Shown here: positions 6,000 to 19,682 of the stretch, one piece after another | Layout of the letters: each line of letters starts with the position of its first letter | Position numbering within the stretch: position 1 is the stretch's first letter | Origin: Microvirga sp. | GTDB lineage: Bacteria; Pseudomonadota; Alphaproteobacteria; Rhizobiales; Beijerinckiaceae | Assembly: GCA_031181145.1 (NCBI GenBank) | Contig: JAPSLB010000007.1 | Coordinates: 1 to 64,000, forward strand | DNA: 64,000 bases | Reading direction: 5' to 3' | Made by a program: the position numbers and the translations under genes | The notes under the pieces: model-generated | The model's database searches: none | What the model saw: the letters and a program-made list of their open reading frames with translations, nothing else | What the model was told of the DNA's origin: nothing

Positions 6000-6164
6000 T
6001 CATCCTTCGGCCTTGTCGCCCTGCCCCTTCTTGGCGCCCTCTCCCATGGGATTGGTGGAATCCTCGCCGGACACGTCGGGATTCTCGCGGCCTTGCGGAG
6101 TCAGGCGCGGGGCGCTGATGTCCTTTTCGGTCGCCTGGTTGGACTTGTCGTCGGTTTGAGCCAT
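6000..6164 (-). CDS. Small hydrophilic, likely disordered protein (1 of 4)
   Basis: MAQTDDKSNQATEKDISAPRLTPQGRENPDVSGEDSTNPMGEGAKKGQGDKAEG; AGAGGAAC RBS upstream of ATG 6164 (alternative start 6188). Confidence 0.6.
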   Translation of the reverse strand: MAQTDDKSNQATEKDISAPRLTPQGRENPDVSGEDSTNPMGEGAKKGQGDKAEG

Positions 6165-6187
6165 CGCTGCTTGTTCCTCTGCTTGCA

Positions 6188-6508
6188 TCAGGTCGGGCCG
6201 CCGGAGCCGCTCGTCGGCCCGGAGCCGGTTTCGGATCCCGCATCGCCTTCGTTGCCGAGAGAGCGCGAGCCGCTGGGATCCGTCAGGCCGCTGGCGCGCC
6301 CGCCGGCATCGGTGCCGCTGGACGGGCTGCCCTTTGGACCGCCTGGAATGGTGCCGGAGCCGGTGCCCGTGGCGTTGGCCTCATCGGCCGACCCGCCCAA
6401 ATCGAAGCCGGGCCGGTCCTGGGACTCGGGCCGTGGATCGCGGGCCGCTTCTTCCGGATCGGGCCGCTCGGAGGGGACACGCGGTCCGGAATTCGGGTTC
6501 TGCGTCAT
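6188..6508 (-). CDS. Small Gly/Ser/Pro/Asp-rich, likely disordered protein (2 of 4)
   Basis: MTQNPNSGPRVPSERPDPEEAARD...; GAGGG before ATG 6508 (alternative start 6523). Confidence 0.55.
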   Translation of the reverse strand: MTQNPNSGPRVPSERPDPEEAARDPRPESQDRPGFDLGGSADEANATGTGSGTIPGGPKGSPSSGTDAGGRASGLTDPSGSRSLGNEGDAGSETGSGPTSGSGGPT

Positions 6509-6519
6509 GATGGGATCCC

Positions 6520-6750
6520 TCATGAACTGGTGGAGTCGGTCGCGTCGCTGTCGCCCACATCCGGCAGGGCTCCCGTGCCGGGAGTCGATTCGGGATTCGT
6601 CAGCGACGGCTTGCCGTGCGGGCCGGCCGCGGGCGGAGCGCCGGGCTTGTCCTCGGACGAGCCCCCGTGGCCGGGATTCGGGTCCGTCCGCTCGGGATCG
6701 CCGTGCTTCTTCGTATCTTCGGTGTGATTGCCGTAGCCTGCATTGCCCAT
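6520..6750 (-). CDS. Small hydrophilic, likely disordered protein (3 of 4)
   Basis: MGNAGYGNHTEDTKKHGDPERTDPNPGHGG...; GGAGAG RBS; end overlaps the alternative start of the next ORF. Confidence 0.55.
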   Translation of the reverse strand: MGNAGYGNHTEDTKKHGDPERTDPNPGHGGSSEDKPGAPPAAGPHGKPSLTNPESTPGTGALPDVGDSDATDSTSS

Positions 6751-12950: not shown

Positions 12951-13847
12951 ATGCCTGAACTGCCTGAAGTCGAAACCGTGCGCCGGGGCCTGGAACCCGC
13001 CCTGGTGGGAGCCCGCTTCACCAAGGTGGTGCAGCGCCGCCCGGCCCTGCGCTTTCCGTTTCCCGAACGATTCGCGGAGCGCCTGGAGGGGCAGGAGGTG
13101 AAGGCCCTCGGACGTCGGGCCAAGTATCTGCTCGCGGATCTCTCCTCGGGCGAGGTGCTGATCATGCATCTCGGCATGTCCGGCCGTTTCCTGGTCACGA
13201 AGGGGGAGGAAACCCGGATGCCGGGGGAGTTTCACCACGAACTGGGAGGCGTTGGCGCCCACGATCACGTGACCTTCAAGCTGTCGAACGGAGCCAGCGT
13301 CACCTACAACGATGCCCGCCGCTTCGGCTTCATGGACCTTGTCCCCCGACCCGAAATCGAGACCTGCAGGCATTTTGCAGGGATGGGGATCGAGCCCCTC
13401 GGCAACGAACTCTCGGGCGAGACCATCGCCGCCCTCTTCGCGGGCAGGCGCACGCCCCTGAAGGCCGCCCTCCTCGACCAGCGCCTCATCGCGGGTCTCG
13501 GCAACATCTATGTGTGCGAGGCCCTGTTCCGCACCGGCCTCCACCCCGAGGCCCCAGCCGGCTCGCTCGCCACCAGGGCCGGCCGGCCGACGCGGAGGGC
13601 GCACCAGCTCGCGGAGGTGATCCGCGACGTCCTCTCGGAAGCCGTCCAGGCGGGCGGCTCCACCCTGCGCGACCATGCCCAGGTGGACGGCTCGCTCGGC
13701 TATTTCCAGCACTCCTTCCGCGTCTACGACCGGGAGGGGGAGCCCTGCGTGACGCCCGAATGCACCGGCACGGTCGCGCGCCTCGTGCAATCCGGCCGCT
13801 CCACCTTCTATTGTCCGGTCTGCCAGAAGCCGCCCCGCGCTCCATAA
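12951..13847 (+). CDS. mutM: Bifunctional DNA-formamidopyrimidine glycosylase/AP lyase
   Basis: [17 protein letters not shown]-terminal zinc finger [27 protein letters not shown]. Confidence 0.95.
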
Positions 13848-15733: not shown

Positions 15734-16549
15734 GTGCCCGATATCGGCTTCGACATGATCGCGGCGCTCGCCGCGATCTCTTTTTTTGCAGGCTTCGTGG
15801 ATTCCATCGCAGGGGGCGGAGGACTCCTCACCGTGCCGGCCCTCCTGCTCGCGGGCATGAGTCCTGCGGGCGCCATCGCAACCAACAAGGTCCAGGGGGT
15901 CTTTGCGGCCGCCTCCGCCACTTACACCTTCGGGCGGCGGGGCATGATCGAATGGCGCAAGGCCTGGGCCTTCACGGCGGTGGCCTTCGTCAGCGGGGTC
16001 GCGGGAGCGCTCTGCGTGCGCTTCCTGCCGCAATCCGTGCTCCAGACCCTGATTCCGGTGCTGCTGATCGCCATCGCCGTCTACTTCGCCCTGTCGCGCA
16101 AGGTGAAGGACGAGGATGCCCAGGCCCGGATGACGGCGCTCGCCTTCGGCGTCACGGCTCCGGTGGTCGTGGGCTTCTATGACGGCATCTTCGGGCCGGG
16201 CGCGGGCTCCTTCTACATGCTCGCCTTCGTGACGCTCCTCGGCTACGGGGTGGTACGGGCCACCGCCCATACGAAGCTCCTGAACCTTGCGAGCAACCTG
16301 GGCAGCCTCCTTCTCTATGCGGCCACCGGAGCCGTGGTCTGGCCGGTGGGGCTCGTCATGGCCGGAGCGTCCTTCCTCGGGGCGCAGGTGGGCTCGCGGC
16401 TCGCGATGCGGCTGGGGAGCCGGATCATCCGCCCGCTGCTGGTACTGGTCTCGGCGGCGATGGCCCTGAGGCTGCTTCTCGATCCCGCCAACCCCTGGCG
16501 GAACATGCTGCGGGAAGGCGGCTTCAAGAGCCTCGAGGCGCTTTTTTGA
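15734..16549 (+). CDS. TauE/SafE family sulfite exporter-like membrane protein
   Basis: [42 protein letters not shown] start. Confidence 0.88.
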
Positions 16550-16715
16550 CGCGCAAAGGCCCGCGGACATTGACCTTCTCGAGGATCACGTCTATAAGCC
16601 GCCCCATACGAGCCCGCGCGTCCCGCGGGCTCTTCGGTTTCCATTCATCAACCGGTCGCTGACGGGGCTCCAAGCCGGGCTTGTCGCGTCGGACTTTAAC
16701 AAACGAGGATTGGCC

Positions 16716-16982
16716 ATGGCCAACACCGTGTCCGCCAAGAAGATGACCCGCAAGATTGCGAAGCGCACCGCGATCAACAAGTCGCGCCGCAGCCGCATGC
16801 GGACGTTCATCCGCAAGGTCGAGGAGGCGATTGCCTCCGGCAATCAGACCGAGGCCTTCGCCGCCCTGCGCGCCGCCGAGCCGGAAGTGATGCGCGCTGC
16901 CCAGAAGGGGATCGTGCACAAGAACACCGCCTCTCGGAAGGTGTCGCGCCTGACGAGCCGCATCAAGGCCCTGAGCGCTTAA
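16716..16982 (+). CDS. rpsT: 30S ribosomal protein S20
   Basis: [39 protein letters not shown]. Confidence 0.96.
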
Positions 16983-17010
16983 ACCGCATCAGGCAACCCA
17001 ACAGCATCAA

Positions 17011-17036
17011 ACCCGGCCCGACGGCCGGGTTTTTTG
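17011..17036 (+). terminator. Rho-independent terminator after rpsT
   Basis: CCCGGCC-CGAC-GGCCGGG-TTTTTT. Confidence 0.85.
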
Positions 17037-17339
17037 TTGCCTCGCGACCCTCCGTGGGCACTGGACATCCATAGCCACAGCCTGCCTCGACCGCCTTTCA
17101 GTCGGCCCGTTGAAGGCACGGCAGGCGAGAGCGATGCCCAGGAAAGCCAGAGCGCCGCGTCCCATCCCGCAGGGACGCAGGCTTTCCCTTATGCAGAGAA
17201 GGACCACGGACCTTTCCCGGACGGGAAGAAGCAGCCATTCCGCCGCGCCGGAATGGCCGGCAAATGCCCCACCTGGCCTTCCGAAATCCGACCCGCCTGC
17301 CGGGGTCGCCAAGAAGCGAAGAGCATCGATCCGGAACCC

Positions 17340-18037
17340 GTTTTTTGTCGCCGTCTTATCCACACAGCAACTTGACTTTACGCCCAAAAAACGGGGTGTG
17401 AAAACGTACTCCGCAGATTCAAATTGCACATGAAATTCAAAGATTGCTCAATAGCTTAGCAGGCAAAGGTTCGCAAAGCATCGGAATCACACAGCGAGTC
17501 ACCCCGAATCGATGCTGAATCAAGGTTGCGGAACAAGCTTTTTTCGCGCGCCGAACCGAGGCGGGGCGACACTGTGAATCAGTTGAAGAGTCAGGACTTT
17601 ATCGCCGCACCCTAAAACCTGTGGACGGGTCTGTGGAGCCGTTTTGGGGATCATGGCCGATCACCTGTTGACTCGTCCATGTTGCGGACCTTCCCCCAGC
17701 CTGTATAAGGTCATCTTGCTTCAACGGCTTGCCGTTAAGTCATCCACTCAAGTCCCGAGCTATAGAACACAACCGCGGGGTCAGGGCTTTGTTTCAGTTT
17801 CACAAGAAGCAAACGAAAGCATATCCCTTACCCAGGGGTAGACTTGGTTGAGCTTGAAGAGATGTACAAGAGGCGACGTTTTCAGATCGCCTCGACTTAA
17901 AATCGGCTTGATAATCTTTAGTACAATTGGGGGCACCACGTTTTGAACAACCTGTGAATCAGGGCTGGCTTCTGTTCAGAACGGGTCATGCGTGGGGGTT
18001 TCAGCCAAGTTCGGCGAAACCTCGTGGAGGGAATTTG
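17340..18037. other. Candidate replication origin (oriC) / dnaA control region
   Basis: ~1 kb non-coding gap before dnaA; perfect DnaA box TTATCCACA at 17356-17364; partial boxes at 17620 and 17632; nine GANTC sites at 17416-17960; AT-richer than flanks. Confidence 0.6.
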
Positions 18038-19540
18038 ATGTATCGCAGCGAGGACCATCGCACCTTTGCCGCTGCCAATGAGAGCGGCATGGAGGCTTCA
18101 GGCGAGCAAACGGCAGCGGATGTCTGGGCGCGGGTGAAACGCCGCCTGCGCGCCGAGCTGGGCGAGGACATCTTTGCCAGCTGGTTCGGTCGCCTCGAGC
18201 TGGATTCGGTGGTGGAAGGCTGTGCCTATCTGACAGTGCCCACCCGCTTCCTAAAAAGCTGGATCGAATCCCATTACGTCGACCGCGTGCTGTCGGTCTA
18301 CCGCTCGGAAACCACGGACGTGGAGCGCGTCGTGATCGGCGTGCGCAACTCTCTCAGCCGCGAGGCGTCCCCCCCACGTCGCCCGAATGATATCTCCCGT
18401 CAGAACACCCCTGCTCCCATGCCGTTGACGGCTCAGGCCATCGAGCCCAAGGCGCCGTCGCTTGCACTCCCGCACGAAGAGCGGACCGAGAACTCCGATC
18501 TCGGCGGCGCGCCGCTTGACCCGCGCCTGACCTTCGAGAGCTTCATCGTCGGCCGCTCCAATGCGCTGGCGCACGCAGCCGCCGACCGGGTGGCCCATGC
18601 GCCGAACGGTCAGGTGATCTACAACCCGCTCTATCTTCATGCAGGCGTGGGCCTCGGCAAAACCCATCTGCTTCACGCGATCGGCCATGAGATGCGAACG
18701 CAAGGCCGCCGGGTCATCTATCTCACCGCCGACCGCTTCATGTATGGCTTCGTCGCCTCCCTGAAGGCGCAGACGTCGCTCGCCTTCAAGGAGCGCCTGC
18801 GCGGCATCGACCTGCTCATCATCGACGACGTGCAGTTCATTCAGGGCAAGCAGATCCAGCAGGAATTCGGCCATACGCTCAATGCCCTCATCGATGCGGG
18901 CCGTCAGATCGTGATCGCCGCCGACCGCCCGCCGGCGGATCTGGAGAATCTGGACGAGCGCGTCCGCTCGCGCCTCGCAGGCGGCCTCGTGGTCGAGGTC
19001 ACGGCGCTGGACGAGGCCCTTCGCACCTCGATCCTCACCACCCGCATCGAGGCGCTGAAAGGCATCCACCCCACCTTCGAGGTGGGGCCCAACGTCATCG
19101 CCTACGTGGCCCGCTCGATCACGGCCAACGGCCGCGATCTCGAAGGCGCGGTGAACCGCCTCCTGGCGCACGCCACGCTCACCGGCTCGGCCATCACCCT
19201 CGAAACCGCCGAAACCGCCATCCGCGACCTCGTGCGCAACCGCGAGCCGAAGCGCGTCAAGATCGAGGACATCCAGAAGCTCGTGGCCTCGCGCTACAAC
19301 GTCTCCCGCTCGGATATCCTGTCGGAGCGCCGCACCGCCGCCGTGGTTCGCCCCCGCCAGATCGCCATGTACCTGTCCAAGGTGCTGACGTTACGCTCGC
19401 TTCCGGAGATCGGCCGCCGCTTCGGCGGACGCGATCACACCACCGTGCTTCATGCGGTGCGCAAGATCGAGAAGGCGCTGGGCGAGGACCACGCCCTCTC
19501 CGACGAGGTCGAACTCCTCAAGCGGATGTTGCAGGAATAA
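18038..19540 (+). CDS. dnaA: Chromosomal replication initiator DnaA
   Basis: [60 protein letters not shown] before ATG 18038 (the ORF track starts earlier at 17927). Confidence 0.96.
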
Positions 19541-19682
19541 GGCGCCAGCGGGGCGGCGAGCGCCCCGGTCGGGCCACGGGACCAAGTGGCCTTGCTTTCT
19601 CCGACAACAAACGCCAATCTTGCCGCCTCGCTTGTCACGCCGATGACAGGCCAAGAATTTCACCGACAATAGGTGTCGCGTT

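Follow-up and report, generated by a model that had tools for sequence, protein, structure and literature searches.

The 64-kb window analyzed here (64,000 bp of a Microvirga genome) carries dnaA on the plus strand (18038..19540; ATG at 18038), a 500-aa open reading frame (ORF) whose product was 81–95% identical to DnaA of 36 other Microvirga and 94–96% identical to that of several named Microvirga species. The upstream neighbor is rpsT (16717..16982, plus strand), an ORF whose product was identified as bS20 by inspection, and a terminator scan placed a terminator after it at 17009–17032. A perfect DnaA box, TTATCCACA (17356..17364, plus strand; zero mismatches), forms the upstream border of a conserved block; it was exact in 33 of 35 other Microvirga, and TTNTCCACA was found in all 35. 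Downstream of this box lie a moderately AT-rich stretch (17383–17480) and a 13-mer, TTAGCAGGCAAAG (17456..17468, plus strand), that was exact in 34 of the 35 and in which no known motif was recognized.

From conservation in the genus alignment, we assigned by eye a predicted dnaA promoter, TTGCGG-16 bp-TATAAG (17682..17709, plus strand); it was not reported by a sigma-70 consensus scan, and its −10 element reads TGTAAG in most relatives. An imperfect palindrome (17718..17740, plus strand), conserved in the genus and located directly downstream of the predicted transcription start, is a candidate RNA hairpin or operator, with one pair showing compensatory changes in the consensus fold. The leader between the predicted start and the dnaA ATG is 300 bp long, and no Rfam matches were found in 16000–19600.

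Density and spacing of GANTC sites upstream of dnaA

Nine GANTC sites occur in this region, starting at 17416, 17484, 17496, 17506, 17517, 17576, 17588, 17670, and 17956. The first seven fall within 177 bp, while the window average is one site per 444 bp. An earlier sequence-only reading had listed the same nine sites, all of which we confirmed, and had assumed a chance rate of about one per 290 bp; that rate was wrong in detail, and the error ran against the finding. Indeed, the window as a whole contains 144 GANTC sites against 375 expected from dinucleotide shuffles, and this depletion makes the cluster upstream of dnaA more striking than had been claimed. When the 1055-bp rpsT–dnaA gap was shuffled, it held 4.2 sites on average, and seven sites in 177 bp appeared in none of 5000 shuffles.

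The density of this cluster was also extreme on a genomic scale. We ranked it within its own genome by pattern searches and samples, with dense clusters checked at spots with chained triplets and at a selection of the remaining looser triplets. Among the places inspected, the sole denser cluster, with eight GANTC in 177 bp, directly preceded repA in a repABC operon (contig C47, 5674–5849). Samples totaling 1.98 Mb from three other Microvirga genomes contained at least seven sites per 177 bp only upstream of dnaA, with the region upstream of hemE a close second in two of the three. Two smaller groupings were noted in passing: a 622-bp stretch downstream of a typA-like gene holds nine GANTC (window positions 6058–6679; five of them within 6533–6679), and the beginning of an nrdR-like gene that lies downstream of glyA has four within 70 bp of coding DNA (contig C37, 1922–1987).

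The start-to-start gaps of 12, 10, and 11 bp noted by the sequence-only reading are exact in the 38-bp core string (17484..17521), and this exact spacing occurs once in the 4.56-Mb assembly. Looser GANTC triplets numbered 51 genome-wide, not above a reversed control pattern. Since no genome-wide bias toward 10–12 bp spacing was detected (39 pairs at 10–12 bp, 37 at 13–15 bp), the spacing of the array is a local feature. At 10.5 bp per turn, the four core sites lie at 0, 1.1, 2.1, and 3.1 turns, and site 17588 is roughly in phase at 9.9 turns from 17484. Sites 17416 (6.5 turns away) and 17576 (8.8 turns) are out of phase with the core, and the description of the whole cluster as helically spaced thus had to be narrowed to the core and, roughly, 17588.

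Conservation of the array within and beyond Microvirga

Alignment of the dnaA upstream regions of 36 Microvirga showed that both the identity and the spacing of the sites are conserved. The core sites 17484, 17496, 17506, and 17517 were present in 31, 25, 36, and 35 of the 36, respectively, with variable spacers, and the pair 12 bp apart at 17576..17592 was nearly invariant (17576 in 36/36, 17588 in 35/36), numbers to be read with the shared ancestry of all the species compared in mind, since species counts overstate independence. The outlying site at 17416..17420 was shared by 23 of 36. The promoter-proximal site (17670..17674), 7 bp upstream of the predicted −35 element, was present in 26 of 36 with C, T, or G as its central base, and in some relatives one or two GANTC lie nearby; between it and the 17576/17588 pair lies a TGTGGAC. 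The isolated site in the dnaA leader (17956..17960) was found in the window and its closest relative only (2/36) and is probably incidental. An overlap of GANTC with DnaA boxes (TGATTCACA at 17573 and 17953) was also considered and was dropped because it is not conserved in relatives.

Conservation was concentrated on the recognition sequence itself. The mean entropy of the G, A, T, and C columns was 0.30 bits versus 0.86 bits for the spacers (p = 9e-7). At 17496, 17517, and 17670, the central base varies and the outer four bases are largely kept. Sites 17506, 17576, and 17588 have an invariant central base, so recognition at these three may extend beyond GANTC. Some subclades have GANTC at extra positions, for example in single columns shared by 8 or 15 of the 36 species. 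Between −700 and −350 of dnaA, GANTC was 6.5-fold over expectation, compared with 3.5-fold for the best of 15 other N-centered palindromes in the same region, and it was depleted in the adjoining 350 bp and in coding DNA. Altogether, the 700 bp upstream of dnaA in Microvirga contain 5–13 GANTC sites.

Similar runs occur outside the genus. Of the dnaA upstream regions compared, 26 of 35 from Microvirga contained GANTC triplets with 9–12 bp gaps, as did 9 of 31 from Methylobacterium/Methylorubrum and 1 of 13 from other relatives; among 1580 stretches of 720 bp drawn at random from these loci, none did. The Methylobacterium runs, such as GATTC-4-GAATC-5-GATTC-5-GACTC, have unrelated flanks, as do the dnaA-upstream runs with 10–11 bp gaps in two further families of the order; the flanks and spacers of the array differ from lineage to lineage. 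The cluster was absent from Chelatococcus, Pseudochelatococcus, several Methylobacterium, and most other families sampled, indicating that it is not a universal requirement.

Together, these results establish the GANTC cluster upstream of dnaA as real and conserved, and they suggest that it is probably functional. The two checks named by the sequence-only reading, on site density and on conservation in relatives, thus both came out for its cluster. The interval 17356–17716 would then be an upstream regulatory region of dnaA in which the array has been kept by selection as CcrM target sites.

The clustering might instead have arisen by chance in intergenic DNA that is richer in GANTC, the species resembling one another by common descent. 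Alphaproteobacterial intergenic DNA does over-represent GANTC (PMC3973325), and the looser triplets of this genome do not exceed their control; however, the shuffles never reproduced the cluster, its sites are more conserved than their spacers, the extra sites of subclades occupy other columns, and other genera have one-turn runs of unrelated sequence. We consider this explanation extremely unlikely. More weight is due to the idea of a platform for a protein that binds the GANTC sequence regardless of methylation (MucR- or GcrA-like, or DnaA via weak boxes), with methylation incidental. Such a protein would fit the three sites with a fixed central base and the presence of TGTGAATCA at 17573, two mismatches from a DnaA box, and GANTC sites in Caulobacter are partly unmethylated, with MucR binding at least some of those (PMC7987155). 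Nevertheless, what the conserved sites have in common is GANTC only, with flanks, spacers, and often the central base varying within and between genera; the DnaA-like context of 17576 is lost in M. flocculans and M. flavescens; and strong enrichment is limited to GANTC among the 16 palindromes. We regard a methylation-blind platform as rather unlikely.

Location of the chromosomal origin

The sequence-only reading had placed the cluster in a putative origin. A segment that is itself the chromosomal replication origin, with GANTC directly controlling initiation, would be in keeping with its perfect, conserved DnaA box, its moderately AT-rich stretch, and a methylation-site cluster such as that of E. 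coli oriC, but several features point to hemE. In Caulobacter, the origin (Cori) is flanked by hemE and a DUF299 gene. In the genome of the window, hemE is on another contig than dnaA (contig C26), in the canonical hemE-type gene order PPPase/DUF299-hemE-rho-mnmE-gidA-gidB-parA-parB; Pfam was used to check the products of the PPPase, parA, and parB genes and to find hemE by its model, and the other names were given from the ORF sequences. Of the hemE upstream regions of 24 Microvirga, 21 had CtrA boxes (TTAA-N7-TTAA), versus none of 35 dnaA upstream regions, and exact parS sites in the six Microvirga genomes searched occurred only near hemE. GC skew is weak in Microvirga, and in two genomes (G035 and G016) noise kept the local skew from being informative, but in a single-contig genome (G028), in which dnaA is 377 kb from hemE, hemE lies about 50 kb and dnaA about 430 kb from the cumulative skew minimum, with the skew mostly positive across dnaA. 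Given the skew, parS sites, CtrA boxes, and gene order, we rejected the origin reading of the rpsT–dnaA segment as very unlikely.

This sequence evidence places the chromosomal oriC of Microvirga at hemE, about 120–380 kb from dnaA in the relatives measured (119–377 kb where both genes are on one contig). In the genome of the window, the probable oriC is the region upstream of hemE (contig C26, 5535–6022), which contains two CtrA boxes, a near-DnaA box, and a GANTC cluster. GANTC sites upstream of hemE were conserved and averaged 9.1 in 450 bp, 5.4-fold over expectation, among the 24 Microvirga compared. Elsewhere on this contig, five GANTC in 91 bp lie between mnmE and gidA, together with CCTGTGGGAATC (13750–13840). 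The dnaA region shares with a hemE-type origin the presence of GANTC sites near a DnaA box and differs from it in having no CtrA boxes, hemE, DUF299 gene, nearby parS, or skew change.

A predicted methylation-state switch for dnaA

The genome encodes candidate components of a methylation-based control system. We found a ccrM gene (398 aa; N6_N4_Mtase and RAMA domains) adjoining an rnhB-like ORF, and a gcrA gene (177 aa; Pfam GcrA, E = 2e-56). A SeqA homologue was not matched in this genome, which is about 90% complete, while the E. coli control was matched. With a cluster that appears to be under selection and CcrM in the genome, a methylation-state switch for dnaA expression, as proposed by the sequence-only reading, is plausible. 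Our preferred interpretation, to which we assign a probability of about 0.6, is that the array is a CcrM-methylated dnaA regulatory array coupling dnaA transcription to fork passage.

In this scheme, in which we infer the methylation of the array sites, its cell-cycle timing, and the reader protein, CcrM would methylate the sites late in the cycle, and fork passage soon after initiation would leave the whole array hemimethylated until CcrM returns; this early hemimethylation is expected because dnaA lies only a few hundred kilobases from oriC. A methylation-sensing protein, for which GcrA is a candidate encoded in the genome, would then read several sites together, aided by the one-turn spacing, which suggests a multimer reading one face of the DNA. 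The change of state would lower, or otherwise alter, dnaA transcription, so that initiation would feed back on the supply of the initiator. With a second GANTC cluster at the hemE oriC, a single event would mark both the origin and the initiator gene.

The effect of methylation on dnaA reported in Caulobacter is small. There, dnaA transcription responds directly to the methylation state of GANTC (PMC3973325), and full methylation appears to activate the gene (PMC2217572); by analogy, full methylation of the Microvirga array may favor transcription. The position of the array argues against the proposed switch: most of it lies 125–235 bp upstream of the predicted transcription start, outside the −40 to +40 interval applied to Caulobacter GcrA targets (PMC7987155), and the motif of GcrA activation, YGAKTCK, fits, by inspection, only site 17506 (CGATTCG), about 210 bp upstream of that start.

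Among known systems, the closest is CcrM/dnaA of Caulobacter crescentus, likewise an alphaproteobacterium with GANTC upstream of dnaA and with CcrM and GcrA, whose dnaA is hemimethylated once the fork passes, as we propose for the Microvirga array. What sets Microvirga apart is the 5–13 sites and the helically phased core found genus-wide, and the best reading of its array is an elaborated form of the Caulobacter switch. The E. coli GATC/Dam/SeqA system resembles it in clustering methylation sites both at the origin and upstream of dnaA: GATC is abundant in oriC and in the dnaA promoter, both of which are sequestered while hemimethylated, and SeqA in vitro prefers whole-helical-turn phasing, an arrangement that oriC itself lacks (PMC5145175, PMC13337833). 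The differences are the use of GANTC rather than GATC, the failure to find a SeqA homologue in the Microvirga genome, and, in relatives, a methylase restricted to part of the cell cycle. GANTC clusters are also known at the replication-control regions of the repABC replicons pTiR10 and Agrobacterium Ch2 (PMC6090056, PMC11514494), so methylation-site clusters at such alphaproteobacterial regions are not new; those clusters, of which the genome studied here also has one, control repC/repE on secondary replicons, whereas the Microvirga array is at the chromosomal initiator gene. In the open-licence literature searched, we found neither a phased GANTC array upstream of dnaA nor paired hemE/dnaA clusters described.

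A further, speculative and unlikely, extension is that Microvirga and its relatives have a CcrM-based SeqA-like system, in which a putative protein or multimeric GcrA would bind phased, hemimethylated GANTC and hold the hemE origin and the dnaA upstream region inactive after initiation. Whether an alphaproteobacterial origin and dnaA are sequestered by hemimethylation is directly testable by pull-down with short, defined DNA. Together, the phased dnaA array and the hemE cluster suggest that once-per-cycle control in Microvirga may depend in large part on methylation, much as it does on Dam/SeqA in E. coli.
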